From Candidatus Sumerlaeota bacterium (GTDB lineage Bacteria; CG03; SLGR01): a DNA stretch of 15,043 nt. This document shows, one piece after another, positions 2,042 to 15,043 of the stretch. The stretch lies in the NCBI GenBank assembly GCA_007136585.1, contig SLGR01000118.1, positions 1 through 15,043 of the forward strand, in the 5' to 3' direction. Position numbers and translations under genes: made by a program. The first letter of the stretch is position 1; each line of letters starts with the position of its first letter. Under the pieces are notes generated by a model. It searched no databases, was not told where the DNA came from, and saw only the letters and a list, made by a program, of their open reading frames with translations.

Positions 2042-2638
2042 ATGCACTTGCACTGTAAAATAAAAAAGATAATGAGACTCCTTAAAGGAGGAAAGGTTAT
2101 CGCCTTCCTCCTTGCGGGAATCCTGGGAGGGATTTCTGTGATGGGGTTTTTCCACCTCGATCAGGAGGCTGTCAGTATATATGAAATGTTCAGTGAAAGT
2201 CTCTCATCCCCCGCCGCCGCGCAGGTCAGTATAAACAGGGAGATAAACGGGGAGAGCCGCTCTGAAGGAGAAGACAGGGAAGAGGAAAGTAAATTTTATG
2301 ACCTCCTGTTTCTTATAGGAAGTATTGTCTTCATGAGCAGTAATACCGCGATATTATATATCCCGGTTTTTCTGATGCTGTCGTTATATATTTTCAAGGA
2401 GGTCCCCGGTTTGGATCGGGGCCGGAGGGCTGGAAAGATACGCTTTTACAGGCTGAGGGCTCTAAAGTTCCTGAACCCCGTTCAAAAGATCATAAGGACC
2501 CGCGCCGAGAGGTATGATATAAACCCTTCTTTTATAAATTTCAGGGGGAAGTTAACCCGCGCATTGGTAAAGGATACACCGCCAGGCGCGGGTTTTTCAG
2601 TAATTAAATATGCATATAATCAGAGTATAGAGTATTAA
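2042..2638 (+). CDS. Small protein with two membrane segments, unknown function ('gene A')
   Basis: A 198-residue protein of no recognised family. Hydrophobic segment 1 is at residues 19-37 and segment 2 at about 87-118. Between them lies a polar, acidic loop (SEGEDREEE) with the motif AAAQVSINREI (58-68). A strongly basic tail (119-198, RGRRAGKIRFYRLRALKF) follows. The positive-inside rule predicts both ends in the cytoplasm and the loop outside. I chose the ATG at 2042 because AAGGTG lies 4 bases upstream (2032-2037); the next in-frame ATG (2072) has no such site. The gap to the previous gene is 77 bases with no terminator. Topology and the INR motif match the protein at 3668-4255, so the two may be distant paralogues. 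A terminator-like hairpin sits inside its last 28 codons. Confidence 0.8.
   Translation: MHLHCKIKKIMRLLKGGKVIAFLLAGILGGISVMGFFHLDQEAVSIYEMFSESLSSPAAAQVSINREINGESRSEGEDREEESKFYDLLFLIGSIVFMSSNTAILYIPVFLMLSLYIFKEVPGLDRGRRAGKIRFYRLRALKFLNPVQKIIRTRAERYDINPSFINFRGKLTRALVKDTPPGAGFSVIKYAYNQSIEY
2554..2598 (+). terminator. Terminator-like hairpin inside the 3' end of gene A
   Basis: Perfect 9-bp stem AACCCGCGC (2554-2562) with GCGCGGGTT (2586-2594), a 23-base loop and a run of five T (2593-2597). This is the form of a Rho-independent terminator. It lies within the coding sequence, 41 bases before the stop codon, so it could reduce transcription into the response regulator gene or act as an RNA-stability element. 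The core CCCGCGC/GCGCGGG recurs at 4210-4238. Confidence 0.5.
2594..2620 (+). promoter_or_regulatory. Possible sigma-70-type promoter for the REC-REC gene
   Basis: A perfect TATAAT is present at 2615-2620. The best -35 candidate is TTTTCA (2594-2599), four of six matches to TTGACA, with a short 15-base spacer. It follows the hairpin at 2554-2594 and lies 42 bases before the REC-REC start. Hairpin, -10 box and strong ribosome binding site in order would suit a separate transcription unit. AT-rich DNA gives TATAAT by chance fairly often. Confidence 0.35.
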
Positions 2639-2662
2639 ACTCAAAAAAACGGAGGTTATGTA

Positions 2663-3415
2663 ATGTCAAAAAGAGTACTTGTAGTAGAAGATGAAGAGAT
2701 TATCGCTTCAATGGTCCAGGATAACCTTGAGGCCAGGGGGTATGAGGTCCTGGTAGCAAACTCGGGGATAGAGGGGCTGAGAAAGGCGGAAATATATGAA
2801 CCGGACCTGATAGCTCTTGATATAATGATGCCGGGTCTTGACGGTATTGATGTTCTCAGGAGGCTCAAGGCAAATAAGGAGACCAGGGATATCCCGGTGA
2901 TTATTCTATCAATAGCGGAAGGGTACCAGAAGGAGGGGTTAAAGCTTGGGGCGGCGGCTTTCATAAAAAAGCCTTTTGATTTTAATACCCTTACAGATAA
3001 GATAAAGAGCTTCACGGAGAATAAATCCGTCCTTGTTGTGGAAGATAATAAGGAGACCCTTAAACTTATTGAGATTAGGATGAGAATGCTGGGTTACGAG
3101 GTCAGAAGCGCAAGTGACGAGGCAGAGCTTTTCAGCAGGTTAGAAGAGGGGAAACCGGATATAATTCTTATGGATGTGGTCCTCCCAGGTCAGGACGGAC
3201 TTGCTATCATAAGAAAACTGAAAGCTATGAAGGAGTACTCTGAGATCCCGGTAATAGTTTTCTCCGGGTACGTCTCGGATGAGCTTTCCGAAAAAGAGAT
3301 CGCCGGGGTTGAGAAGTATATTGACGGAGATATAAACCCACAGGCCCTGGTTGAAGAGGTAAGGACATATATAGATAAAATATCCTCAGAAACCTCCGGT
3401 ATCAGCGCGCTCTAA
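2663..3415 (+). CDS. Stand-alone tandem response regulator receiver protein (REC-REC)
   Basis: A 250-residue protein made only of two CheY-like receiver domains, with no DNA-binding or enzymatic output domain. REC1 (4-118) has the acidic pair E9/D10, phospho-acceptor D53 (LIALDIMMPGLDG), switch residue S83 and K103 in IKKP, so it looks fully competent. REC2 (122-240) has E127/D128, acceptor D171 (IILMDVVLPGQDG) and S201. The conserved Lys-Pro is replaced by Gly222-Asp223 (KYIDGDIN), so its phosphorylation response may be altered. The start at 2663 has a consensus GGAGG at 2651-2655 with 7-base spacing. Such proteins usually pass phosphate in a relay or act by binding a partner. No histidine kinase is in the window, so its partner is unknown. 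It sits between the two small membrane-protein genes. Confidence 0.95.
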   Translation: MSKRVLVVEDEEIIASMVQDNLEARGYEVLVANSGIEGLRKAEIYEPDLIALDIMMPGLDGIDVLRRLKANKETRDIPVIILSIAEGYQKEGLKLGAAAFIKKPFDFNTLTDKIKSFTENKSVLVVEDNKETLKLIEIRMRMLGYEVRSASDEAELFSRLEEGKPDIILMDVVLPGQDGLAIIRKLKAMKEYSEIPVIVFSGYVSDELSEKEIAGVEKYIDGDINPQALVEEVRTYIDKISSETSGISAL

Positions 3416-3667: not shown

Positions 3668-4255
3668 ATGGGTAAATTTTATAATAAGACATTTTCTATA
3701 TTAGGAAGCATACTGCTTTTCTGTATATTTTCTATTGTAATGTTGGGAGAGGGGTTAAACCTCTCTTCCAATAGCGGGTTTCTGAACCCCGCAACCGCCG
3801 CTCCTTCGGTGGCCGCCATGGTGATAAACCGGATAGTGGGGACAGGGTCTTCCGAGGCTTACGAGACCGCCGGGCGAGAAAACCCGGATGAGGGTTCCGG
3901 CTCCGCGGATTCCGGTTCGGTTTTCTTCTCTCTTTCTAACGCTTCCCTTGCCGGCGCAGAAAAATGGCTTATGCTTCTTATGCTGGGGCTTTTCCTGTCA
4001 GCTTCGGTTATACTGATCACCCTGAAGAACAAAGTATGGGCGCCGGGAGGAGCTCCTCTCTTCAAAAGGGATCTGCTGATGTTTTTCAGGAAGGTAAACG
4101 CCCTTATCATCGATAAGCTGCGAAGATTCCTTTCGATGGTCTATGATTCGGTGCCTTTTTCATATCTTCCCGCAGGTTTTGCGGATACCTCAGTTTCCGC
4201 TGTACCGGACCCGCGCTTTGTTTCAGGCAGAGCGCGGGCCTTTCATTTGGTCTAA
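3668..4255 (+). CDS. Small protein with two membrane segments, coupled to the giant gene ('gene B')
   Basis: A 195-residue protein of no recognised family. Hydrophobic segment 1 is at residues 9-27 and segment 2 at 100-119. The loop between is Ser/Gly/acid-rich and carries VAAMVINRIV (48-57), resembling AAQVSINREI of gene A. After segment 2 comes a basic tail (LFKRDLLMFFRKVNALIIDKLRR region, 131-153). The predicted topology is cytoplasmic ends and an external loop, as in gene A. No Shine-Dalgarno sequence precedes the ATG at 3668, so initiation may be weak or leaderless; a later in-frame Met (residue 25) has none either. Its TAA (4253-4255) shares one base with the ATG of the giant gene, a classic translational-coupling arrangement. 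It may be an assembly partner, membrane anchor or regulator of the giant protein (inference). Confidence 0.75.
   Translation: MGKFYNKTFSILGSILLFCIFSIVMLGEGLNLSSNSGFLNPATAAPSVAAMVINRIVGTGSSEAYETAGRENPDEGSGSADSGSVFFSLSNASLAGAEKWLMLLMLGLFLSASVILITLKNKVWAPGGAPLFKRDLLMFFRKVNALIIDKLRRFLSMVYDSVPFSYLPAGFADTSVSAVPDPRFVSGRARAFHLV
4207..4248 (+). promoter_or_regulatory. GC-rich hairpin just upstream of the giant gene start
   Basis: Stem CCCGCGCT (4210-4217) pairs perfectly with AGCGCGGG (4231-4238). GG 4207-4208 can add two pairs with CC 4239-4240 across a bulged A. The loop is 13 bases and a T-rich tail TTTCATTT (4241-4248) follows. It lies within gene B and ends 14-16 bases before the ATG at 4255, which has no obvious ribosome binding site. 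It could attenuate transcription or hide the start until ribosomes finishing gene B open it. The tail is weaker than in a standard terminator. Confidence 0.45.
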
Positions 4256-7200
4256 TGGAAACTCTTCTTAAAAAACTCAAACCCATAAGCTGGACCATCC
4301 TTGCATGCTTCATCTTTGTCCACATATTCTCTGATTTTGCCCTCGCTGCCGGAGAGCTGAGCCGGTCTCCCCGTCTGGATGTTTCCGGGATAGAGGTTCC
4401 TGCGGAGTTCGGCCAGGTCGTTGAAACCTACCGGGGAAGCGCAGAGTACGCCCCGCTTGTCATAATAAACGACCTCCACGCTAATTTTGAGGTTCAGCGG
4501 AATATTATGAGGGTGCTGAGCTACCTTGACTCAGAGCACGGGTTCGGAAAAGTAGGGGTTGAAGGAAGTTCAGGGGTTATAGATACTGCGCTTCTGAGAG
4601 ATATCCCCGACAGCGGGATCCGGGAGAACGCCGTAAAGTATTTTATGAGACACGGGGTGGTAAACGGCGCGGAAGGGTATGCCTCACTTAACGGGTCCGG
4701 TCCCGTAACACTGATCGGGGTTGAGGATCCGGAAGTATATGAGAAGAATACCGGGCTCCTTATATCCTCTCTCAACCGCCGGGACAGCTTTGTGGGGTAC
4801 CTGGAAAGGATCAGCGAAATACTGGGCGAGGTTGAGAGAAGGACCTTCTCCTCTGACCTGAGACGCTATAATACCCAGCTCAGCCTCTACAGGCAGGATG
4901 AGCTCAGCCCCGAAGTTTTCCACGGGTACCTGAAGGAGTGGGCCCGGAGAGCCGGTGTTTCCATAGGTGGTATCTCCCCTGAGTACAGCAGGTACATGAG
5001 CCTTACCCGCAAGCAGGGGGAGCTTAACATGAGGAGAGTTGAATCGGAGTACCGCAGGCTTATCCGCGATATAGAAGGCTCCGGTTCTTCCTCCCGGGTG
5101 GTAAGGCAGATTAGCCATATAATGCGTAACCCCGAGAGCATCAGGCGGCAGATGATGGACAGGATCGAGACCGATCCCAGGTACGGAAACCTGCGCGATT
5201 ATATCCGGATGATTAACCTCGCCCATGAGGTAAACACCGACCTGCTGGTAAGGGACGAGGTCAGGGTGCTCCGGGAAGTTTCCCTGGGGCTCTGCCGCGA
5301 TGACACGGAAAGGGCCCTGGTAAAGGCCGGAGAGTATATCCAGCTTATAACCAAGTTTATGCTTAACCAGGTGAGCAGCGACGATCTGATAACTTTTCGT
5401 GAAGAGGCCGAGAGTTTCAGGAGAAAATTTGAGCTGCTCCGCGCTAAATACAGACGTGAGTTTAACGAACTTGATCACCTTTTCGGACGTCTATCACCCT
5501 ACATGGACGAGATGAGCAGGTTCTATGAACTGGCTGAAGAACGTAACGCGATATTTATTGAGAACCTGAAGAAAAAAGCCGGTCTCGCCTCCGGAAACTG
5601 CGCCCTGATAACCGGCGGGTTCCATACTGACGGGATAACCCCCATGCTCAGGGAAAAAGGGTACCCGTATGTGGTAATAAACCCCAGAGTTACTTCCCAT
5701 ACCCAGGAGGATATGAGAACCTATTACAGCCTTCTCCGGGAGGAGGAGCCCGTAAGCTACGAGGAGCTTGTGTCAGAGACGCTATCGCTCCCCTCGTTCC
5801 TTGACCGCCCCTGGCTTAAGAACCGGATACTGGCCTGGGTTGCCGGAAGTTACATCCGTCAGGATCTCGGCCGCCGCGCCCCTACAGATGACCTGGGAAG
5901 TAGGCTTGAGAGTTTTCTAAGGAAGTGGGACAGCAAGGGTAAATTCAATTTTACGGTTGCCGAGAGTTATACTTACGGAGATTACCATATACTGCAGCTT
6001 CTTTCGCTCGGGGACGAGTATCTTCGTCTTAATATTGGTGTTGACGCAGAGGGCGGGATAACCCTCCTGGAACCGGATAGCGAACCCGTTATGGCGGGGC
6101 TGGCCGAATCCAGGGTGGCCGGAGTCAGAGCAACCGGTGATCCCGGGATGGAGCTGACCCGGGACGTGAAAGCCGTCATAGCCGGAATACGCCCTGTAAG
6201 CGAAGCTGTTCAGGTTGAGGATCCGGAAACCTTTGAGAGGTGGCTGGGAGCCGTAAGTTCAAACCTCCGCCTGGTGAGGACGGAGGCCGGGTATTACCTC
6301 TTTGACCGGGTCTCCGCCATAGAAAAGATGATAGACGAGAACAACCGGTTTATTGAGCACAGGGTTTTTGAAAATCCTGTCCTGACCGCCAAGCCGGCCT
6401 CGCTTGCGGCCCATCCCCGGTTCTCCATTCTCCAGTCCGAGACTGTCAGCGCCGGCGAAGCGGAAAAATACCTTAGTAAGTTTGAGGCCGAGCTTAAGGG
6501 TATTGATCACCCGGCTCCGGCTCCGCAACGACCCCGCGGGTTCCTTCCCCGTTACGGTATCTACGCGGGGTTGGGAATAGCAGCTGCCGCTTCGGCCGGG
6601 ATCCTGGGGGTATCTGGAGCGGTTGCGGCTTTTGCCCTGTCTTCAATAGCAGTTATTGGGTTCCGACGTTACGCCGACCGGCGCCGCGCGGCAAGAAGAC
6701 CGGCTCCCGTCCGCACTGACAGGGAAAGAATTCTTGAGCCGGTTGAAAGGTATCTTGAAACAGAACCGGAAACCCCCCGCGAGAAGGAGGATACTGAGCC
6801 TGCGCTCCGTGAGCCCGGTCTTATTTCACTCTTATCATCAGGTATCAGGAACGCCGTATCCGGAGTTCTCTCAGCTTACGCCCGGATTCATCTGAACCTT
6901 TCAGGGGCGGTCTTAGGCGCGCTCTCCCGTATGCCTTCGGAGCTTTCCGGAGAAGAGCTTCTGGATGTAAGCCGGGACGGGCTCGGAAAAGCCGAGACCG
7001 CCGCGGAGATCTCCCGTATATGGGACAGGCTGGGGGATGCCGGGCTTCTTGAGACGCACAGCCGGGAGTTAAACGATCTCCTTCTTGAAAGAATTACCAC
7101 TCTGAGTCTCAGGCAATCCAGTGATATAAATATCTGGGACGCCGTCCATTATTTCAGTAAAATAAAGGCTCTTTCGGAGTACGGCGAGAGCATACACGTT

Positions 7201-10200
7201 CCGGAGCCCCTGGCTGACCTGGGGCTTCCCGGTATAGTCTCCGGTCTAAGCCGGGAGGGGATCATAATCTCTCCGGAAGAGTCTCTTGATCAGGTATACA
7301 CGCTTAACCCGGCTGCTGTTACCATTGACGGGTACGATTTTCTCTTTCCCAGGATATTTATTGAAGACGGTGCTGACGGGCATTCGGTTATAGGCCTTGA
7401 GGTTGTAGAGAGGGATTCGGGGCAGAGCCTTCTCTCCTACCCGCTGGTATTTGATCCGCCGACCCACCTTAAGGGGACCCGATTTGAGGGTGATACAAGG
7501 TACAGGGCGGAGGATCCCAGGGCTTTCATTAAAGACGGACGCCTTTACCTTTATTACACGATGGTGGAGACGACGCCGCGCAGAAGGCTCGCCGACGGCA
7601 GGATGCAGAGCGACCAGGAGATGTGGTCCGAATGGAAGACCTGGTCGGCGGCATCAAGCATTTCACTGGATAACCTCAGGGAATCCCTCTCAGGGAAACT
7701 CTCTCCGGAGGATTTCAACTGGGAGCACCACGGGGATATGGACCTTATACAGGACCTGGAGATAGACGGGCGCGCCCAGAACGTCAAGAACGGCCTCTAC
7801 TGGGGCGAGTTCGAGTTAGAGGGAAAGAAGCGGCATATGACCCTCCTTCGCCCCACACCCGTTGACTCTTTCAGGACACCAGACAAGAACGTCTATACGG
7901 CCTTTTCCGATAACCTCGAGGGACCCTACACCCTGGGAGACAGGTTATACTCTCCCAGACGCCCTGAAGGCCCCTATTCCGGCCTTGCTTTTGACAGCGG
8001 GTATGTGGGAACCACCGCCTCTCCGGTAAAGACCCCTGCCGGCTGGGTTCATATATACCACACGGCCTCGGAAACAGCTGACGGTGTTGTGTACAGACTC
8101 GGTATAATGATAACAGACCTTAACCAACCCGATAAGATTATTTACCGTTCCTGGCTTCCTCTCCTTTCCCCGGAGGATAAAACCGAGTTTGACGGATGGG
8201 TGGATAACGTTGTCTACTCCAACGGTTTTACCTGGGACATCCTCAAGGACGGTTCCCTGCGGATAAATCTTTACTACGGGGCCGCCGATACTCATATTGC
8301 GAAAGCTTCTTTCACCGTTGACCTGAGAGAGAAAGACGGGGCTTCCCTGGCGGAGCTTCAGGAGAAGGAGCTTGCCCTGATCAGGGAGGCGGCCCAGTAC
8401 CTTGAAGAGAGGGCTCTTCCCTCTTCCCGGGAGAGGGTATACCTGTCTCCCGATGAAGAGGGTACCCCCCTTGTCGTTGAGGTTCCCGAGTTTCAGGAAG
8501 AGCTCCTTCCGGGGGCTGAACCCGGGTTTGACCTCTACCGGAACGAGAAGGAGATAAAGGCCTTAAGAAACAAGCTCTCCTACTATGATGAGAAACAGGG
8601 GGCCTGGAAAGGTTATTTTCACGAGGGGTATTACGGGCGTGAAGTTACCGAAAATGACGTTATTCTCCTTACCGCCACCCGTGAACAGAAGAACCTTGCC
8701 AGGAATATGCTTGAAGGAACTCTTTCTCCCGACAGGATAATGAGCGTGAGCGACTGGTTTTCAATGAGCCCGACCCGCAGGCCGGATCCAAGGCTGATCT
8801 TTGTCTCGCTTGTAAGGTCGCAGGGCGATACCTTCCAGGCGATGGCCGGACGTACCGTAAAAGTTCACTACCATACAAAAGACGGCGGGATAGTTGAGGA
8901 GGTCTTTGAGATACCTTCGGTCCTTGATATGCGTATGCCCAAATCCGGCGAGGGGTACTACATTAACGTAAAAGTCGATACCGACCTTGAAAGGGTGATA
9001 AAGGAAGGGGACTCGCCGGAGAAGAAAAGACAGGTAGAGCCGACTGATTACAGGTCTCTTTACCTCGACCGGTTTGATTTCAGCACCCTTCAGGTAAAGG
9101 ACGAGGCCGGGTACTGGAGACCGGCCCGGTACAGGATAAAAGATAACCCTGATCTGGAGAAGGAATATGTTGAGGGTATGGGGGTTCTTCTCGGCAGGCC
9201 GGGGATAAGAGTACTTGGTAATTACAGCGTCCTCAGGGCTCTTACTGACGCGGTCCGGGAGACCGGAATGAGCCCGGAAGAAGCCCGGGAATACGAGATA
9301 CGCGAAACGGTATCGGAGAATATAAAAGGGGCCAGGATAAAGGATGAAAAGAAAAGAGATCGTTCGGAATCAGTTGACGCGGTAATAAATATTATCATTG
9401 AGAACGACGGGAGGATGAGTTCTCTCGGAGACCTTAAGGATATCCTGGGCGCGGCCGGTATAAGTTTCGGAGAGACGGCCATGGTAAGGGTGGCTGCCGG
9501 GCTTAACCTTGAGATACCCGATAAGCCGAAGCTAAGGGATATAGCGGCATCCGCGTTTAAGACAGCCCTTTGCCCGGGCGCGGCGGCAACCTCCGCTGCA
9601 GACCCCGTTCTTGGTTCAATGCGGGAAAGAGCCCCTCCCCGCGAGGTTTCTGCCCAGACTCTGCGCGAACTTTACGCCGAAAATACCGAAAGCGGGTTCG
9701 TAATGGAGCCCTATAAGGAGATAATAAAGTTTGAGGGTAAGCCTTTTTACGCCCAGTACGTACAGTATCCCAGGAGAAGGAAAGACCCTGAATGCGTTCT
9801 CTGCGAGAATAAATACCGCCCGGAGAGGGTATATTTTCCCTGGCAGGGATCCCGCGGAGAATACATTATATCCGCAAACGCCTACTCTTTCTTTGAGAAC
9901 CAGACCGACCTTATAACACAGGAGCATATTTCCCAGGATATTGACCGGGAAACTTTTAATGATGTGGTTGAGTTTCTTTCCCGGACAGGTTTCCGGGTGG
10001 GGTATAACGGCAAGGGCGCCGGCTCATCCCGGCCCCTGCACAGGCATTTCCAGGCTTCCGAACAGAGGTTCCCTGTTGAGGATGCCGGGGTTACGCCCCT
10101 GGGCGTAAGAGGCGGGGTCAGAATAGGGATGCTTGAGGATTACCCGGCCAGGGTATTCGTGCTGGAAGGGTCTTCCTCCGAAAATATGACAGATGCGGCT

Positions 10201-13200
10201 CTTGAGGTGCTGGGTCTTCTGGATAAGCATTCCCTTCCTTATAACCTGCTTTTTGCCCCGGGAGAAGACGGGGAGTCAAGGGTTTTCATCTTTCCGCGGA
10301 GTATGGAGAAACCTTCCACCCTGGGAGTTATGTTCGGGTACCCCCAGATGTCCGGTATAAACGTATGTTTTGATCCTCATATACTCAGTGATCCCGGTTT
10401 CGGCGATATGATAGAGGACTCCCTCAGAGAGGTTTCTTCCGGGGAAGAGGTTGACCGCCTTACGGAAGATGTAAAAAATATGTTCCGTCAGGTTATTGTG
10501 CTTCTTGGCCCTCCCGGTTCAGGTAAGGGGACCTATTCCAATATGTTCTCGGAAGAGTACAGGACCCCCCGTCCTGTCTCCGCGGGTGAGCTTCTGAGAA
10601 ACCTCCCCGAAACGGATCCGAGGAAAAACGAAATAGAAACCCTTATGGCTGAGGGAAGACTCGTTCCTCCGCAGATAACATACGAGCTTCTGGGTGAAGA
10701 GATTGAGAGGATACTCAGTGAGAACCCCGGTGAGCCGGTTATCATAGACGGTTCACCCCGGAGAGCTGAGGAGATCAGGCTTTTCAGGCAGATGCTGGAG
10801 GAACTGGGTGTTTCAATAGCAGCGGTTCTTGATCTCAAGGTGGAAGGGGAAGAGGTGCTCAGGCGCCTTACCCGGCGCGGCCGGGAGGACGATACCCCGG
10901 AATCGATAATTGAACGTATGAGGATATACAGGTATGAGACCCAGCCTGTCATAAACCGCTTTGAAGAAGACGGGGAAAAGGTTCTGAGGGTTGACATATC
11001 GGAATCTGCCGTTGAGGATAACTATAGGAAATTCGCGGATTCGCTCCTTGAGGTTGACGGTATATCTGATCTGATTTCCGAAGAGCCGTCCGCGGAGACC
11101 CCGGATCCCTCAGAAGAGACCCGAATCGCTTTAAGGGAAAGGGTTCCCGCATATTATGATCTTAACGCTCTCTTAAACCCGTTTGGCTGGCTCAAGGGGT
11201 ACTTTGACCTTGTAACCTCCCTCCCCGGAAGAAGGGAGACGGCCGGGCTTCTTCCCGAAGGGACCCCTGCCGAAGCTGATATCTCGGAGGAAGTATACCC
11301 CGCGGAGACCCCGGAAGAGGAACTCCCCTCGGAAGACCCTGCCCCGGAAGAAGAGGAGACCCGTATAGCCTTACGGGAAAGGGTTCCCGCATATTATGAC
11401 CTTAACACTCTCTTAAACCCGTTTGGCTGGCTAAAAGGGTACTTTGACCTTGTAACCTCCCTCCCCGGAAGAAGAGAGACAGCCGGGCTTCTTCCCGAGG
11501 GAACCGCGGAGGTTCCCGCGGATGAGGTCGCGGAAGACGATCCTGTAAGAGAGGCCCCCGCCGCGGAGGATATGGAACCTGAACCGGAGGTTTCGGAACC
11601 TCAGCCGGTTACGGAAGAAGAAACAGTCGAGACGGAACCCGGCACCCGGAGAGGTGCTCAGAATATGCTCGACTATATGTCGCGCACGAAGGATTACAGG
11701 GAGTCCGTAAAAGAACAGGTGCTTAGAATTGAGGAAGAGCAGATGGAGGTTTCAGAAGAGATCTTCAGGATGTATACTGAGCATTACCGCGAAACTTACG
11801 GAGAGGAAGGGTGGGAAGCGCTTAAGAAACGCCAGCTGGAAAGGTTCAAAGAAAGCGAGGCCGCTGCCCGGGCCGATTATAAAGAGAGAAGGGAAAGAGG
11901 AGAACTTCCGGAGAGCGAAAGAGGGTTAAGTATAGTAAACCCGTGGGGGCTGATGTTTTTCCCGGGTAAGTTCGGAGATTTGACCGGCGCGGCGGAGTTT
12001 AAAAATATCGAGACCCGTTCACGTGATATAAGCAGGGGATGGCGCGGACCTGTACGCTTCGTGACTTCTCAGAAAACCCCCTCCTCCGATCCCTCAGCCA
12101 GGGCCGCGATGGAACGTTTCGGCATAGAGAGCGAAGATCTTCCCTACGGGATGGAGATAGGCAAAGGGCACCTTTACCACACTGTTGAGTTTACCCGTGA
12201 CGCGGAGGGGTTTGCCCTCTGGAACGCGCTCCTTGATGACCCGGATTTTTCTCACAGGGTCTTTCTGCCGTGGGTTCCGGAGTTCGGCCCGAAATACGGT
12301 CTTCTCTTTATGGATATGGAAGCGCTTGACGAGCCCAGGGAGGCCAGGGGCGCCCTGGGGCTTTTTGACTGGGAAGAGACGCAGGCTGCCGCGCCGGCCC
12401 GGGCGGAGAGTGATGAGGCTGAAGAAGAGAGCCAGTGGGAGGAGTTCCTTTCAGAGTGGAACAGGGAACTTAAACAGCTCAAAGACCGGAAGGATTCCCT
12501 CCTGAGGGAGTCCATACGGATGGTAAGGTCCCTGGCGGGTCAGAGGGGTATGGAGACTTCCCGCGCCCGGCAGCTGACCAGCGATATGCTTGCCCTGCTT
12601 GAGACCGCCCGTTCAGGGGTGGAGAGAAACCTTGAGAATATGCTCAGCGGTCTCCGCGAAGAGATAAGGCCCGGTGAAGGAGAAAGAACAGCCGTTGCCC
12701 TGGACAGTGATGGAAATATAATAAGGACCCCGCTCAGCGGGATTTCCGAAGAATCTCCCGTCCCGTCCGGAAAAGGACGCCTGGCGGTCATTTCTCCTGA
12801 CGAAACCGTCCTTGCTTTCACCGACCAGGGGCGCGTTTACGTGGTAGAGGGGGATTCTCTGAGTCTTGAACCCGGGGAGGAGGTCACGGCCCTCTCGGGA
12901 GTCAATACTTCAAAAGAAGGACAGTACGCGGTTATCGCCACGAGGAGCGGGCGGGTAAGAAGGATGAGCCTGGATAAACTTGTGCCGTACGCCCGGAGCA
13001 GCAAGAAGGTTTTTACGTTCAAGGAGGACGAGGATGCCGTCCTCTCTGTTGAGATTACCGGCGGGGAGAGGGAACTCCTCCTTATATCCTCTATGGGTCA
13101 GGCGCTCCGTTTCAGGGAAACGGATGTCCCGGAACACGTTACTGAAGCTACTATGGGTGTCAGGGGTATACAGCTTCCTGAAGGCGATACCCTGGTATCT

Positions 13201-15043
13201 ATGAGTGCGATCCCGGCGGATTCTTCAAAAACCGTACTTCTTATAACAGATGACGGTAAAGCCCGGCGCTCATCTACGGAAGGCTTTCCTCTTTTCAAAA
13301 GGGACGATGTCGTCTACAGGACCCCCGGCAAATGGAAAGAGATGGTCGGGACCCCGTTTATAACCTCGGGCAGGGTTTCCGGTGTTTTCCTTGTTGACGA
13401 TTCGGACCATATAATTTTCGCCTCTTCTGAGGGGATAACCCGGAAGGAAGCTCTCCGGGTTCCGGCTGAGGAATCGCCGTTCTACCCGGGAGTGGATTTT
13501 ACAGACCCGGATTCCGCGCGTTCCGGTATGGCGGCTCTTATCCCCGGAGGACTGGATATAAGCGAGGCTATGAGTCCGGAAGAATGGAAGGAGTGGTCGG
13601 AGAGGTTCAGGGAAAACCTGCGGAAAATATCCCGGAGCGGTAGTGAACTCGCGGAGTTATGGAGAGGGAGAATAGAGAAGGCCCTTGAACGCGGGTTCCC
13701 GCATGAGGAACCCTCAAAGGTACTTAGCGTACGCCAGGAGAGCGACAGGTGGGCCGACCAGATACTTTACGGGGAAAAGACCATTGAGACCCGGACATGG
13801 AAGAACAGTAACATAATCGGGCGGATGGTATATCTACATGTTCCCAGGGCCAGAGGAGACGTCCACGGACGCATAATAGGAAAATTCAGGGTTGTTGATG
13901 TGGTTGACCTTTCCGACCCGGATGTCTTTGAGGCTCTTGGCGATATGCACAAGGTCTCTTTTTACGAGTACGGACGCAGGTACGGTTATCTCCTGAGCGA
14001 GGTGGAACCCTTAAGCGAGCCTATGCCTTATCCCGGGGGCCAGCGTTTTTATGAATTTGACGAGTCCGTTGCGGAAAGGGCTGCCGCCGAGGAAGAAGCC
14101 GCCGCGGAAAGCGATGATGACCGCAGGACCCCGGCAAGGCCCGCGGAAGATGATGAGGAAGAGGACGGGGTCCCTGAAAATATACAGGAAGCCCTTGACG
14201 CGCTCTCCAGGCTCTCCGGAATGAAACAGGCCGTTGAGAGAGAACACCTTCTTCTCCGCATTCTTGAAGGCCAGATGCAGGATATGACGGCAGATGAGGC
14301 CCCGGCCGATATTGAGGAGATAGAAAGAGCGCTCTTTGAGCTCGCCGGGGCCCTGGGTTCCGGAAACGAGGAAGAGATACTCCGGGTCTCCGGGATACTG
14401 AAATCACTGGCGGAGAACCCCGGCAACCGGGCCGTTCTGGAACCTGTGCTTCTTTCGTGGGGAGTTGACCAGGCCTATGATATCCTGGGGATGCGCCGTG
14501 ATACACTGGAAGAGAGACTGGCCGAGAGAGTGAGAGAGAACCTCAGCTCCGGCCGCGGACGCCCTCAGCCCTCGGTTCCGAAACAGGCCCATTACGAGAA
14601 ATCCGAAATTCTTGAGGCTCCCACGGGGGAAGATTACCTTTACAGGCCTCTGAGCACCCTGCGTCTGGTGGACGAGGAGGGTACCGAGTCTCCCCTGGAA
14701 TTTGAGGGGAGTCCTCTTGAGGGTCTGCACCTTTATATAGACGGGAAGAAAGTGCTTCTCAACCCGCAGCAGGAAGAGGTGGTCTGGACAGCGGCAAATT
14801 ACATGATGCCGCAGTCCAGGGACGACCCGGCTGAGATAGACCTTGAGGCCCTTCCCGGCGAGTCGGCGGAGAAGAACCTTTTTGAAGGTATGACCATTGA
14901 TCCCCAGACACTTAAGGAATCCCCCCGGGGAAGAAGGATAAAGGGGCTCATAGAAGTTCTCCGGGACTCCGGGGTAAATCTGCCCGAAGAGGCTCGTTTC
15001 TACAGCGACAGGGAGAAGGGGGAGGTTTCCGGGGTATTCTCAG
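4255..15043 (+). CDS. Giant multidomain membrane-tethered protein (3' partial, at least 3,596 residues)
   Basis: Starting at ATG 4255 (TAATG overlap with gene B), I read every codon to the window edge and found no stop. Domains by residue: signal peptide/anchor 11-31; TIKI/ChaN/EreA-like extracytoplasmic region ~35-480; uncharacterised region to ~765; hydrophobic segment 767-803 followed by an Arg-rich stretch; GH130 ~1018-1358; unassigned 1360-1800; GalT/HIT-like ~1805-2075; adenylate kinase ~2080-2265; acidic linker with two 51-residue repeats; ASCH ~2558-2705; coiled coil ~2723-2808; six-bladed GyrA C-terminal pinwheel ~2811-3080; second ASCH ~3156-3268; acidic linker; weak topoisomerase IB N-domain-like tail ~3470 onward. 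Proteins this long are known mainly from Omnitrophota and a few other lineages. The overall function is unknown. The mix of carbohydrate, nucleotide and nucleic-acid modules on one chain is unusual. Confidence 0.95.
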   Translation, partial: METLLKKLKPISWTILACFIFVHIFSDFALAAGELSRSPRLDVSGIEVPAEFGQVVETYRGSAEYAPLVIINDLHANFEVQRNIMRVLSYLDSEHGFGKVGVEGSSGVIDTALLRDIPDSGIRENAVKYFMRHGVVNGAEGYASLNGSGPVTLIGVEDPEVYEKNTGLLISSLNRRDSFVGYLERISEILGEVERRTFSSDLRRYNTQLSLYRQDELSPEVFHGYLKEWARRAGVSIGGISPEYSRYMSLTRKQGELNMRRVESEYRRLIRDIEGSGSSSRVVRQISHIMRNPESIRRQMMDRIETDPRYGNLRDYIRMINLAHEVNTDLLVRDEVRVLREVSLGLCRDDTERALVKAGEYIQLITKFMLNQVSSDDLITFREEAESFRRKFELLRAKYRREFNELDHLFGRLSPYMDEMSRFYELAEERNAIFIENLKKKAGLASGNCALITGGFHTDGITPMLREKGYPYVVINPRVTSHTQEDMRTYYSLLREEEPVSYEELVSETLSLPSFLDRPWLKNRILAWVAGSYIRQDLGRRAPTDDLGSRLESFLRKWDSKGKFNFTVAESYTYGDYHILQLLSLGDEYLRLNIGVDAEGGITLLEPDSEPVMAGLAESRVAGVRATGDPGMELTRDVKAVIAGIRPVSEAVQVEDPETFERWLGAVSSNLRLVRTEAGYYLFDRVSAIEKMIDENNRFIEHRVFENPVLTAKPASLAAHPRFSILQSETVSAGEAEKYLSKFEAELKGIDHPAPAPQRPRGFLPRYGIYAGLGIAAAASAGILGVSGAVAAFALSSIAVIGFRRYADRRRAARRPAPVRTDRERILEPVERYLETEPETPREKEDTEPALREPGLISLLSSGIRNAVSGVLSAYARIHLNLSGAVLGALSRMPSELSGEELLDVSRDGLGKAETAAEISRIWDRLGDAGLLETHSRELNDLLLERITTLSLRQSSDINIWDAVHYFSKIKALSEYGESIHVPEPLADLGLPGIVSGLSREGIIISPEESLDQVYTLNPAAVTIDGYDFLFPRIFIEDGADGHSVIGLEVVERDSGQSLLSYPLVFDPPTHLKGTRFEGDTRYRAEDPRAFIKDGRLYLYYTMVETTPRRRLADGRMQSDQEMWSEWKTWSAASSISLDNLRESLSGKLSPEDFNWEHHGDMDLIQDLEIDGRAQNVKNGLYWGEFELEGKKRHMTLLRPTPVDSFRTPDKNVYTAFSDNLEGPYTLGDRLYSPRRPEGPYSGLAFDSGYVGTTASPVKTPAGWVHIYHTASETADGVVYRLGIMITDLNQPDKIIYRSWLPLLSPEDKTEFDGWVDNVVYSNGFTWDILKDGSLRINLYYGAADTHIAKASFTVDLREKDGASLAELQEKELALIREAAQYLEERALPSSRERVYLSPDEEGTPLVVEVPEFQEELLPGAEPGFDLYRNEKEIKALRNKLSYYDEKQGAWKGYFHEGYYGREVTENDVILLTATREQKNLARNMLEGTLSPDRIMSVSDWFSMSPTRRPDPRLIFVSLVRSQGDTFQAMAGRTVKVHYHTKDGGIVEEVFEIPSVLDMRMPKSGEGYYINVKVDTDLERVIKEGDSPEKKRQVEPTDYRSLYLDRFDFSTLQVKDEAGYWRPARYRIKDNPDLEKEYVEGMGVLLGRPGIRVLGNYSVLRALTDAVRETGMSPEEAREYEIRETVSENIKGARIKDEKKRDRSESVDAVINIIIENDGRMSSLGDLKDILGAAGISFGETAMVRVAAGLNLEIPDKPKLRDIAASAFKTALCPGAAATSAADPVLGSMRERAPPREVSAQTLRELYAENTESGFVMEPYKEIIKFEGKPFYAQYVQYPRRRKDPECVLCENKYRPERVYFPWQGSRGEYIISANAYSFFENQTDLITQEHISQDIDRETFNDVVEFLSRTGFRVGYNGKGAGSSRPLHRHFQASEQRFPVEDAGVTPLGVRGGVRIGMLEDYPARVFVLEGSSSENMTDAALEVLGLLDKHSLPYNLLFAPGEDGESRVFIFPRSMEKPSTLGVMFGYPQMSGINVCFDPHILSDPGFGDMIEDSLREVSSGEEVDRLTEDVKNMFRQVIVLLGPPGSGKGTYSNMFSEEYRTPRPVSAGELLRNLPETDPRKNEIETLMAEGRLVPPQITYELLGEEIERILSENPGEPVIIDGSPRRAEEIRLFRQMLEELGVSIAAVLDLKVEGEEVLRRLTRRGREDDTPESIIERMRIYRYETQPVINRFEEDGEKVLRVDISESAVEDNYRKFADSLLEVDGISDLISEEPSAETPDPSEETRIALRERVPAYYDLNALLNPFGWLKGYFDLVTSLPGRRETAGLLPEGTPAEADISEEVYPAETPEEELPSEDPAPEEEETRIALRERVPAYYDLNTLLNPFGWLKGYFDLVTSLPGRRETAGLLPEGTAEVPADEVAEDDPVREAPAAEDMEPEPEVSEPQPVTEEETVETEPGTRRGAQNMLDYMSRTKDYRESVKEQVLRIEEEQMEVSEEIFRMYTEHYRETYGEEGWEALKKRQLERFKESEAAARADYKERRERGELPESERGLSIVNPWGLMFFPGKFGDLTGAAEFKNIETRSRDISRGWRGPVRFVTSQKTPSSDPSARAAMERFGIESEDLPYGMEIGKGHLYHTVEFTRDAEGFALWNALLDDPDFSHRVFLPWVPEFGPKYGLLFMDMEALDEPREARGALGLFDWEETQAAAPARAESDEAEEESQWEEFLSEWNRELKQLKDRKDSLLRESIRMVRSLAGQRGMETSRARQLTSDMLALLETARSGVERNLENMLSGLREEIRPGEGERTAVALDSDGNIIRTPLSGISEESPVPSGKGRLAVISPDETVLAFTDQGRVYVVEGDSLSLEPGEEVTALSGVNTSKEGQYAVIATRSGRVRRMSLDKLVPYARSSKKVFTFKEDEDAVLSVEITGGERELLLISSMGQALRFRETDVPEHVTEATMGVRGIQLPEGDTLVSMSAIPADSSKTVLLITDDGKARRSSTEGFPLFKRDDVVYRTPGKWKEMVGTPFITSGRVSGVFLVDDSDHIIFASSEGITRKEALRVPAEESPFYPGVDFTDPDSARSGMAALIPGGLDISEAMSPEEWKEWSERFRENLRKISRSGSELAELWRGRIEKALERGFPHEEPSKVLSVRQESDRWADQILYGEKTIETRTWKNSNIIGRMVYLHVPRARGDVHGRIIGKFRVVDVVDLSDPDVFEALGDMHKVSFYEYGRRYGYLLSEVEPLSEPMPYPGGQRFYEFDESVAERAAAEEEAAAESDDDRRTPARPAEDDEEEDGVPENIQEALDALSRLSGMKQAVEREHLLLRILEGQMQDMTADEAPADIEEIERALFELAGALGSGNEEEILRVSGILKSLAENPGNRAVLEPVLLSWGVDQAYDILGMRRDTLEERLAERVRENLSSGRGRPQPSVPKQAHYEKSEILEAPTGEDYLYRPLSTLRLVDEEGTESPLEFEGSPLEGLHLYIDGKKVLLNPQQEEVVWTAANYMMPQSRDDPAEIDLEALPGESAEKNLFEGMTIDPQTLKESPRGRRIKGLIEVLRDSGVNLPEEARFYSDREKGEVSGVFS
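4285..4350 (+). other. Signal peptide or signal anchor of the giant protein
   Basis: Residues 1-10 carry three Lys (LLKKLKP), 11-28 are hydrophobic with aromatics, and FALAAGE follows, giving an Ala-Leu-Ala type I signal peptidase site after residue 31. Sec-type export of the N-terminal domain follows. Whether the peptide is cleaved cannot be told by eye. Confidence 0.75.
4450..5700 (+). other. Domain: TIKI/ChaN/EreA-like extracytoplasmic region
   Basis: Begins with the strand-and-motif LVIINDLHANFEVQRNI (D73, H75), then KVGVEGSSG (E103). It ends with CALITGGFHTDGI (H457) followed by a Tyr-Val-Val-Ile-Asn strand. An early Asp/His, a Glu on the next strand and a late Gly-x-His motif separated by a long helical insertion is the pattern of the TIKI/ChaN/EreA/TraB superfamily, whose members bind metal, haem or cleave esters. 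I infer only a distant relationship. The intervening helices (residues ~170-440) are rich in Arg and Glu. Confidence 0.35.
6553..6711 (+). other. Internal hydrophobic segment with Arg-rich flank
   Basis: About 37 residues (767-803) of Ala/Gly/Leu/Ile/Val without charge are followed by FRRYADRRRAARR. With the N-terminal domain outside and the positive charge after the segment, one crossing would put the rest of the protein (residue 804 onward) in the cytoplasm. A two-helix hairpin returning outside is possible by length but disfavoured by the charges. Confidence 0.65.
7306..8328 (+). other. Domain: glycoside hydrolase family 130 (beta-mannoside phosphorylase type)
   Basis: Family GH130 cleaves beta-mannosides, mostly by phosphorolysis that releases alpha-mannose-1-phosphate. 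Visible signatures in order: YRAEDPRAF (R1084-R1089, with D1087 at the catalytic-acid position of the EDPR motif); GYVGTTASPVKTPAGWVHIYH (G1249-H1269, where most members have YHG); Y1280 in VYRLG; ITDLNQPDKIIYRS; VDNVVYSNG; and YYGAADTHIAKASF with D1345. The length of about 340 residues is normal for the family. His1269, Tyr1280 and D1345 correspond to phosphate- or sugar-site positions in phosphorylase members, which favours a phosphorylase, but the subfamily is not assigned. A GH130 domain inside a giant membrane protein is unusual; family members are normally single-domain proteins. Confidence 0.88.
8329..9666 (+). other. Unassigned region of the giant protein between GH130 and GalT/HIT-like domains
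   Basis: Residues ~1359-1804. I recognise no family. It begins with a helical Glu/Leu-rich segment (1363-1395) and continues with a mixed alpha/beta section (FDLYRNEKEIKAL to about LDRFDF). It ends with helical segments containing DAVINIIIENDGRMSSLGDL (starting at residue 1708), which may be a small winged-helix-like or helical domain. There is no hydrophobic membrane segment. Confidence 0.5.
9667..10480 (+). other. Domain: GalT/HIT-like nucleotidyl transferase or phosphorylase (DUF4922/VTC2-like)
   Basis: The region contains CVLC (C1847, C1850), then YIISANAYSFFENQTDLITQEH, then the active-site motif NGKGAGSSRPLHRHFQ (N1918-Q1933). The HxHxQ pattern (H1929, H1931, Q1933) after Gly-Ala-Gly-Ser-Ser is that of galactose-1-phosphate uridylyltransferase, Ap4A phosphorylase and GDP-L-galactose phosphorylase, in which the second His is the nucleophile carrying the nucleotide. 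The CxxC and the spacing of the 'N...H' segment fit DUF4922-type proteins best. Expected chemistry is nucleotide transfer to a sugar-phosphate or phosphate; the substrate is unknown. It is followed after ~20 residues by the adenylate kinase domain. Confidence 0.72.
10488..11052 (+). other. Domain: adenylate kinase, short form
   Basis: Interconverts ATP + AMP and 2 ADP (or a related nucleoside monophosphate). P-loop GPPGSGKGT (G2085-T2093) follows the strand QVIVLL. VSAGELLR replaces the usual STGDLLR, GRLVPPQITYELL matches the NMP-binding helix region, IIDGSPRR replaces the usual LLDGFPRT, and RRLTRRGREDDTPESIIERM contains the arginines and Asp-Asp of the GRxDD motif. The LID insertion of long-form bacterial enzymes is absent, as in AK1/UMP-CMP-type short kinases. 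All core catalytic motifs are recognisable, so activity is plausible. It directly follows the GalT/HIT-like domain. Confidence 0.9.
11113..11265 (+). repeat. 51-codon intragenic direct repeat, copy 1
   Basis: Encodes EETRIALRERVPAYYD (starting at residue 2287) followed by LNALLNPFGWLKGYFDLVTS and LPGRRETAGLLPEGT, embedded in an acidic, Pro-rich linker. Copy 2 lies exactly 240 bases downstream. The two differ at 13 of 153 bases by codon comparison: 12 synonymous changes and one Ala-to-Thr change. The aromatic, hydrophobic core in a disordered linker looks like a docking peptide (inference). Confidence 0.9.
11353..11505 (+). repeat. 51-codon intragenic direct repeat, copy 2
   Basis: Same peptide as copy 1 except Thr in place of Ala in LNTLLNPFGWLKGYFD. 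The sequence between the copies (11266-11352) and after copy 2 (11506-11640) is Glu/Pro/Ala-rich and not repeated precisely, so only this peptide is held constant. Confidence 0.9.
11926..12372 (+). other. Domain: ASCH (PUA-like), first copy
   Basis: LSIVNPWGLMF (residue 2558 onward) matches the ASCH opening LSxxxPWAxxI. FKNIETRS (K2583, E2586, R2588) matches the GxKxxExR motif, followed by WRGPVRFVTSQK, ERFGIESEDLPYGMEIGKGHL and the closing YGLLFMDMEALDEPREARGALGLFDW (begins at residue 2681). ASCH domains bind RNA or nucleotides in the PUA-like fold, and some hydrolyse modified nucleosides. An insertion (PGKFGDLTGAAEF) replaces the usual one- or two-residue turn before the Lys-Glu-Arg motif. 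Confidence 0.7.
12421..12678 (+). other. Predicted coiled coil before the pinwheel
   Basis: Residues ~2723-2808 are charged and Leu-spaced without Pro (EEFLSEWNRELKQLKDRK, later LLETARSGVERNLENML), consistent with one or two long helices linking the first ASCH domain to the pinwheel, or mediating dimerisation. Confidence 0.5.
12685..13500 (+). other. Domain: GyrA/ParC C-terminal-type six-bladed beta-pinwheel
   Basis: In gyrase and topoisomerase IV this domain binds and bends DNA. Six blade strands are visible: AVALDSDGNIIRT, VLAFTDQGRVYVV, YAVIATRSGRVRRM, LLLISSMGQALRF, TVLLITDDGKARRS and VFLVDDSDHIIFASSEG. TMGVRGIQLPEGDTLVSM is the hallmark loop of GyrA C-terminal domains (RGVRGIxLxxGDxVVxM). 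The GyrA box (QRRGGKG), needed for positive DNA wrapping, is reduced to PSGKG (S2838-G2841), which suggests DNA binding without gyrase-type wrapping. The catalytic breakage-reunion domain is absent in the window. Confidence 0.87.
13720..14058 (+). other. Domain: ASCH (PUA-like), second copy
   Basis: VLSVRQESDRWADQILYGEK (3156 onward) matches LSIRQPWADLILxGxK, and GEKTIETRTW carries K3175, E3178 and R3180 of the GxKxxExR motif. GRMVYLHVPR, GRIIGKFRVVDVVDL and YLLSEVEPLSEPMPY complete the fold pattern. A residue insertion replaces the QPW motif (QESDRW). It lies about 75 residues after the last pinwheel blade. Likely a nucleic acid- or nucleotide-binding module; the ligand is unknown. Confidence 0.85.
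14590..15043 (+). other. C-terminal visible part: weak similarity to topoisomerase IB N-terminal domain
   Basis: The stretch SPLEGLHLYIDGKKVLLNPQ (residue 3486 onward) then QEEVVWTAANYMM resembles the eukaryotic-type topoisomerase IB N-domain pattern LPxGVKLYYDGKxVxLxPEAEEVATFYAxML. KNLFEG about 30 residues later could match the NFFxDW element. The match covers little sequence and no catalytic Tyr or Arg residues are within the window, so this is a suggestion only. A viral or bacterial-type TopIB has no such N-domain. Confidence 0.3.

Follow-up and report, generated by a model that had tools for sequence, protein, structure and literature searches.

Giant genes with a shared head, variable enzyme cargo and a conserved tail in a Candidatus Sumerlaeota bacterium

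Giant open reading frames (ORFs) are well known from the Omnitrophota, including one of 39,678 amino acids (aa) in Velamenicoccus archaeovorus (Seymour et al. 2023, PMC10066038), and huge proteins are enriched in Elusimicrobiota (PMC11573180). Citing a preprint (West-Roberts et al. 2023), PMC12057145 describes giant genes as common in Elusimicrobia and CG03 too. Such bacterial genes have mostly been listed singly, with few domains and little conservation. Here we analyzed a contig of 15,043 bp from a Candidatus Sumerlaeota bacterium of the CG03 lineage (assembly GCA_007136585.1, contig SLGR01000118.1), which as a whole is referred to as the window. It carries the beginning of a giant gene starting at position 4255, which belongs to a family of giants built from a conserved N-terminal region (head), a variable middle part with enzyme domains (cargo) and a conserved C-terminal region (tail), and mostly preceded by a small gene (partner). 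While giant genes are known in this part of the tree, a shared head-cargo-tail architecture was not found described: our literature search, which covered the West-Roberts preprint through PMC12057145, returned no description of this head, tail or partner.

The open reading frame at 4255 and its relatives

A reading of this DNA from its sequence alone had described an uninterrupted frame running out of the window. The ORF listing (table 11) bears this out: from the ATG at 4255 to base 15042 of the plus strand, there are 3,596 codons and no stop. The window corresponds to the whole of contig C24 in the source metagenome-assembled genome (MAG; 1.88 Mb, 257 contigs, estimated 88% complete; G000 below), so the 3' end of the gene, which that reading had placed beyond the window, is absent from the assembly itself. 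The visible part of the gene measures 10.8 kb, compared with the 20 kb above which ORFs of Omnitrophota are counted as giant, and relatives reach up to 40 kb.

The window sequence consists of A, C, G and T only. At its composition, the probability of 3,596 stop-free codons is ~10^-73, and the longest open frame in 200 Markov-simulated sequences of the same make-up was 292 aa. Under a codon-usage model derived from ordinary genes of this genome, frame +0 scored best in 70 of 70 overlapping 300-bp segments along the ORF. These three results rule out a chance open frame. The GC content of the three codon positions (GC1/GC2/GC3) is ~0.6/0.4/0.6 along the entire ORF, and the ATG shares one base with the stop codon of the upstream gene (TAATG). 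An altered genetic code was also considered and is not needed, because table 11 already gives a stop-free frame and the neighbouring genes terminate normally.

That the frame represents a single giant gene and not several adjacent ones, as had been proposed, is backed by related giants in other genomes of the phylum. The head reaches the conserved tail within single frames of genome G001: the gene at 2266-5535 of contig C2 is complete (1,089 aa) and consists of head and tail with nearly no cargo, and in single frames on C9, C142 and C87 (visible lengths of 2,246, 2,856 and 4,454 aa) the end of the head is joined to the tail. Moreover, two long cargo stretches of the window ORF (residues 1389-1732 and 2460-3144) have in-frame matches in giants of another family. 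The cargo behind a head on G001 C41 and that preceding a tail on G004 C169 is colinear over more than 2,000 residues, and the two seem to represent an orthologous giant shared by two families. Frames of 11,855, 13,409 and 9,921 aa on G003 C25 and C42 contain no masked bases and are each cut by a contig end. A frame of 24,620 aa in G242 (C22, L167-L171) is almost wholly masked N and was excluded as evidence; such masked runs are a trap for statistics on stop-free frames.

We also considered an artefact, that is, ordinary genes fused by sequencing or assembly errors, or a stop-free frame arising by chance. In favour of this, the MAG is fragmented and the end of the gene was not assembled. But the coding signal stays in one frame throughout, the cargo is colinear in frame with that of other families, and the identical architecture occurs in four independently assembled genomes. 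We regard an artefact as highly improbable. Taken together, the open frame is confirmed, and the evidence supports the window ORF as the 5' part of one giant gene that is a member of a paralogous giant family.

Head and cargo of the giant protein

The recognisable domains follow each other in one frame, as had been claimed, in the order head, GH130, DUF4922, adenylate kinase, GyrA C-terminal propeller and ASCH. The features of the ORF, with domain calls from Pfam and NCBIfam scans, are:

4255-15043, plus strand: giant ORF with head and cargo, open to the contig end
4255-4353, plus strand: Sec-type signal-peptide-like N-terminus (KKLK, hydrophobic stretch, ALA), from sequence and hydropathy, kept in the family
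4354-6180, plus strand: conserved head with a probable EreA/ChaN-like core, from alignment A3, an AlphaFold2 (AF2) model, VIA-align and residue conservation
6553-6663, plus strand: 37-residue uncharged stretch with basic flanks, a putative hydrophobic hairpin or membrane segment, from hydropathy
7372-8319, plus strand: GH130-like mannoside-phosphorylase propeller (Pfam 3.6e-18, residues 1251-1355; PDB 1vkd, 1.7e-18)
8419-9450, plus strand: cargo shared in frame with the 11,855-aa giant of another family (G003; blastp, 29% identity, 1e-20, residues 1389-1732)
9787-10059, plus strand: DUF4922, HIT/GalT-like (Pfam 3e-8, residues 1845-1935)
10489-10995, plus strand: adenylate kinase (Pfam 1.3e-25, residues 2083-2240)
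11112-11505, plus strand: tandem-duplicated linker after the adenylate kinase (two 154-nt copies, 240 nt apart, 92% identical)
11632-13686, plus strand: cargo shared in frame with the 9,921-aa giant of another family (G003; blastp, 24% identity, 8e-28, residues 2460-3144)
12856-13440, plus strand: DNA gyrase A C-terminal beta-pinwheel (Pfam 1.1e-15; NCBIfam; PDB 1zi0, 5e-18; residues ~2868-3062)
13729-13950, plus strand: ASCH domain (Pfam 3.6e-4, residues 3159-3232)

The head comprises residues 1 to ~640 of the window ORF (~550-640 aa across the family), and alignment A3 and the searches show that it has two features of the family, the conserved head and an N-terminal signal peptide. All complete heads start with a Sec-signal-like N-terminus that has a conserved AxA-type end. 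Invariant residues of the head in alignment A3 include D73-x-H75, Q81, E103, R430 and GGFH457. D73, H75, Q81, E103, G138, R430, the GG pair and H457 are unchanged in 31 of the 31 distant rows covering them, and H75, E103 and H457 are also invariant in 12 near relatives. This pattern suggests that a His/Glu/His catalytic centre is kept, with the matching to residues of EreC based on the probable fold.

The AF2 model of the head (pLDDT 78.8) gave no significant match in Foldseek, and a search of the head sequence against the PDB returned nothing real, including no sequence match to the EreA/ChaN members deposited there. VIA-align matched the model to EreC (6xcs; Z 8.4 over 194 residues), 2rad (Z 7.9) and HopBA1 (5t09; Z 7.0), in a list in which unrelated helical rows (TTYH) score as high as this EreA-like group. 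Judged from this second-aligner ranking together with the motif evidence, the head probably adopts an EreA/ChaN-like fold. It resembles the members of this superfamily (EreC, BcR135 (2rad) and HopBA1) in the probable fold of its core and in the invariant D-x-H / E / GGFH pattern, but differs from them by a long helical insertion, the signal peptide and its position at the front of giant chains. Most relatives checked have a hydrophobic element after the head comparable to that at 6553-6663. The counterpart on contig C110 is longer (45 residues), and both elements have basic residues on either flank.

The GH130 segment carries an R-x-EDPR motif. HxHxQ is present in the DUF4922 segment (LHRHFQ), which found no match in the PDB. 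The adenylate kinase has kept its P-loop and catalytic arginines, as seen in an alignment to the M. tuberculosis enzyme (2cdn); an ordinary copy is encoded on contig C237 and scores 165 bits vs 97 for the copy in the giant. The ASCH domain barely passes (21.6 bits vs a cut-off of 21.2) and its segment likewise had no match in the PDB. Acidic, proline-rich linkers occur along the chain, for example at residues 2275-2289 and 2358-2369. Unrelated enzyme domains spaced by such linkers, one of them duplicated, would be expected of a polyprotein that is cut after synthesis into separate enzymes, its head and tail guiding or protecting the precursor. However, neither a common cleavage motif nor a dedicated protease was identified, and blastp comparisons of members showed no conservation of the linkers. 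We consider a polyprotein unlikely.

The cargo of other members includes GH94, glycosyl transferases, alpha-amylase and starch-synthase domains, ABC1 and Ser/Thr kinases and FHA, as well as phospholipase D, topoisomerase IB, helicases, metallophosphatases, SecA, pyruvate kinase, cation efflux, PPDK, methyltransferase, M23, CAAX protease and HD domains; two large members of the family had zero Pfam matches. Catalytic residues are kept in most cases inspected, including adenylate kinase and pyruvate kinase, and so are the motifs HNDIKPEN/DFG of a protein kinase, GEGKT of SecA, the DEAD-type motifs and EDPR of GH130. A 6,000-aa giant frame on G000 C226 contains a diverged SecA (L135 12796-13995; 255 bits), with an ordinary SecA (415 bits) elsewhere in the genome. 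The only pyruvate kinase match of the MAG sits in a giant on G000 C123 (L136 2749-3747, minus strand) with most active-site motifs kept; as the MAG is 88% complete, another copy could be missing.

Tail, partner genes and distribution of the family

The sequence-only reading had missed that the giant is part of a repeated, conserved cassette family, and with it the tail of a preceding giant and two partner genes. The corresponding features upstream of the ORF are:

3-1964, plus strand: 3' end of the preceding giant, 653 aa visible, 5'-open (ORF listing)
1065-1961, plus strand: conserved ~300-aa tail of the preceding giant, ending in a P-x-L-N...ILYAK-type motif (alignments A1/A4)
2042-2638, plus strand: partner gene 1, 198 aa, two hydrophobic segments (alignment A2, hydropathy)
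2663-3415, plus strand: response regulator with two receiver domains, inside the cassette (Pfam Response_reg 7e-45, two stretches)
3668-4255, plus strand: partner gene 2, 195 aa, a divergent copy with two hydrophobic segments (A2 profile, 149 bits)

The order in the window is hence giant tail, partner, response regulator, second partner and head, with a two-segment partner directly upstream of the giant. Tail, partner and head likewise follow each other on G000 C110 and C243, on G001 C2 (twice) and C136 and on G003 C25, and tail is followed by head without a partner in between on G001 C87 and C9. All genes lie on one strand at nine of nine tail-to-head junctions. A partner is found directly upstream of 11 of the 16 testable heads and is absent before those on G001 C87, C9, C97, C123 and C24. 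Proteins of the partner family have ~180-200 aa, two hydrophobic segments and a conserved end of the type FLxPVxK...YDINP...GFF; partner gene 1 matched no Pfam or NCBIfam family above cut-off.

Giants in the order-level clade of the window end in a conserved region of ~300 aa with a shared final motif. The AF2 model of this tail is all-helical, with a pLDDT of only 65, and gave no fold match. For close paralogues, the ratio of non-synonymous to synonymous substitution rates (dN/dS) was 0.28 in heads and 0.12 (window tail vs its C243 paralogue), 0.23 and 0.33 in tails. These values, 0.12-0.33 overall, indicate purifying selection on both heads and tails.

The visible start of the preceding giant has an NMNAT/cytidylyltransferase-like domain (Pfam CTP_transf_like, E 1.9e-4). 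The same domain (window 3-380) opens the visible part of G001 C7 (L154) and is thus found as cargo in giants of two genera. Two genera also share a similar response regulator without recognised output domain, which in G001 lies in the partner-to-head interval of C136 (L042 1052-1771). On G003 C42 (57-33175, L028-L029), a partner pair and a giant are preceded by a long series of genes whose starts resemble signal peptides; some of these genes can be aligned to GH94 cargo in the G003 C25 giant.

A contig scan with a single sequence gave no matches; relatives were found by an alignment-based scan. Of 16 genomes of the phylum, searches with head, tail and partner each picked out the same four (G000, G001, G003 and G004), with heads located at the front of further giant frames in G000 and of giant frames in the other three. 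G000 has at least 11 tails, and the window holds the start of one of at least 11 giant proteins in this bacterium that share their front and back ends. Contig breaks recur within the conserved head (G001 C136, C97, C87, C24, C123, C11, C9 and C142). Breaks at this position are as expected if near-identical tandem heads collapse in assembly, which would make the counts of giants lower bounds.

Overall, heads were found in 17 of 386 genomes spread over the tree. The phylum of G242 has them in 9 of 44 genomes, some with at least 29 copies each, and G242, G387, G388, G370, G396 and G397 encode dozens of large head-bearing proteins per genome. The C-termini of such proteins in the G242 phylum may share another short motif, ending RALE-S-[IL]. 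Carriers in distant phyla include complete large proteins of 2,508, 3,527 and 2,753 aa, one distant carrier bears CofD and ARMT1-like cargo, and stand-alone proteins with hardly anything beyond the head (~520-565 aa) occur in G102 and G041. Tail and partner searches in the other head-carrying phyla gave no match, which divergence may also explain. Named relatives of the window head were deposited as 'Elusimicrobia bacterium', and their isolate names presumably refer to soda-lake sediment and spring samples.

Together, these alignments show a three-part family with an exported-looking head, variable enzyme cargo and a ~300-aa tail, which is organised in tandem cassettes and mostly has a partner upstream.

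Possible function and comparison with known systems

Our favoured, though tentative, interpretation is that the giant is a multi-enzyme chain tethered to the membrane of the producing cell. Its N-terminal signal sequence would take the head across or into the inner membrane, where the head, as a probable EreA/ChaN-like hydrolase with a kept His/Glu/His centre, could be active as the module common to all members. The chain would be anchored by the hydrophobic element that follows the head and by the partner with its two segments, and the cargo would be a string of working enzymes held together (nucleotide kinases, sugar phosphorylases, DNA and protein modules). Cargo might be gained and lost by recombination between the conserved ends, with head and tail under purifying selection. 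The colinearity of cargo across families (G001 C41/G004 C169; window/G003) and the invariance of the catalytic core of the head in distant phyla are in line with such a tethered chain. So are the frames joining head to tail, the co-occurrence of head, tail and partner, the one-strand junctions and upstream partners, the dN/dS values, the kept cargo motifs, the location of the genome's sole pyruvate kinase match in a giant, and the signal peptide with the hydrophobic element behind the head.

Several observations weigh against it. The hydrophobic element is basic on both flanks and some relatives have two segments or none, so that either side of the membrane is possible for the cargo. It is also odd to find ATP-dependent cargo behind an export signal. 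Moreover, 5 of the 16 testable heads lack a preceding partner, the match to the GH130 profile is partial (its C-terminal third), and many cargo stretches have no recognised domain.

Nucleotide-dependent cargo would need a cytosol, which could also be that of another cell. The giant might be secreted or held at the surface and deliver its enzymes into another cell, be it a neighbour, prey or host, with head, hydrophobic hairpin and tail serving export, membrane insertion or docking as in effector chains with conserved ends. The signal-peptide-like N-terminus of all complete heads, the conserved ends flanking a variable middle and the presence of a second, diverged adenylate kinase and SecA in addition to the ordinary ones are compatible with this, and giant ORFs of Omnitrophota have been linked to predation (PMC10066038). 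However, the cargo scanned contains no RTX, Rhs, cysteine-protease or secretion-linked domain, and much of it is metabolic (pyruvate kinase, mannoside phosphorylase, PPDK) rather than made up of classical effectors. Delivery into other cells is possible, but in our view doubtful.

A surface coat or adhesion function, as proposed for Omnitrophota, would fit the similar sizes and the same broad part of the tree (PMC10066038, PMC12057145). But no discoidin, laminin-G, dockerin, cadherin or beta-helix repeat was found in the window ORF or the scanned relatives, and such a role seems improbable.

A more far-reaching reading, which we put forward as a speculative possibility, is an undescribed and widespread system that chains complete metabolic and information-processing enzymes behind a common catalytic, membrane-directed head. 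Tandem arrays would swap cargo between fixed ends, in the clade of the window a membrane partner and a fixed tail would be added, and such chains might carry out part of central metabolism (the sole pyruvate kinase match of the genome). A biochemist would hardly expect enzymes such as SecA, pyruvate kinase and adenylate kinase inside giant chains. With this assignment, an otherwise anonymous giant gene can be recognised as belonging to a protein family: the shared head, tail and partner can serve as profiles for finding, counting and aligning giant genes, and concrete tests of cargo location, cutting and activity become possible.

MARTX-type multifunctional toxins have conserved ends flanking variable effector or enzyme domains, a layout that the window family shares. 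RTX repeats and an autoprocessing cysteine protease were absent from the Pfam scans of the window ORF and the scanned relatives, in which cargo is mostly metabolic. Readings as an adhesin or RTX protein were rejected, as the Pfam and NCBIfam scans of the window ORF found no such domains. Modular polyketide synthase (PKS) and non-ribosomal peptide synthetase (NRPS) megasynthases are similar in being very long multi-enzyme chains encoded by tandem genes. This candidate was also rejected: no ketosynthase, acyltransferase, ACP, condensation, adenylation or T domain was found in the window ORF by Pfam or NCBIfam, and a weak 'Erythro-docking' match (0.01) is below its cut-off.

The giants described by West-Roberts et al. 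occur in lineages whose NCBI names match those of the window relatives ('Elusimicrobia bacterium'); as summarised in PMC12057145, they are linked to cell-wall degradation and predation, and that summary does not mention a head-cargo-tail scheme. The giants of Omnitrophota (PMC10066038) resemble those of the window family in being very long, secreted or membrane-linked, poor in annotated domains and common in a phylum of uncultured bacteria related to Planctomycetes, Verrucomicrobia and Chlamydiae (PVC). They are reported to show little conservation and to carry adhesion domains or numerous membrane helices, whereas the window family, compared with them by description, is set apart by its recurring head, tail and partner and by its housekeeping-type enzyme cargo.
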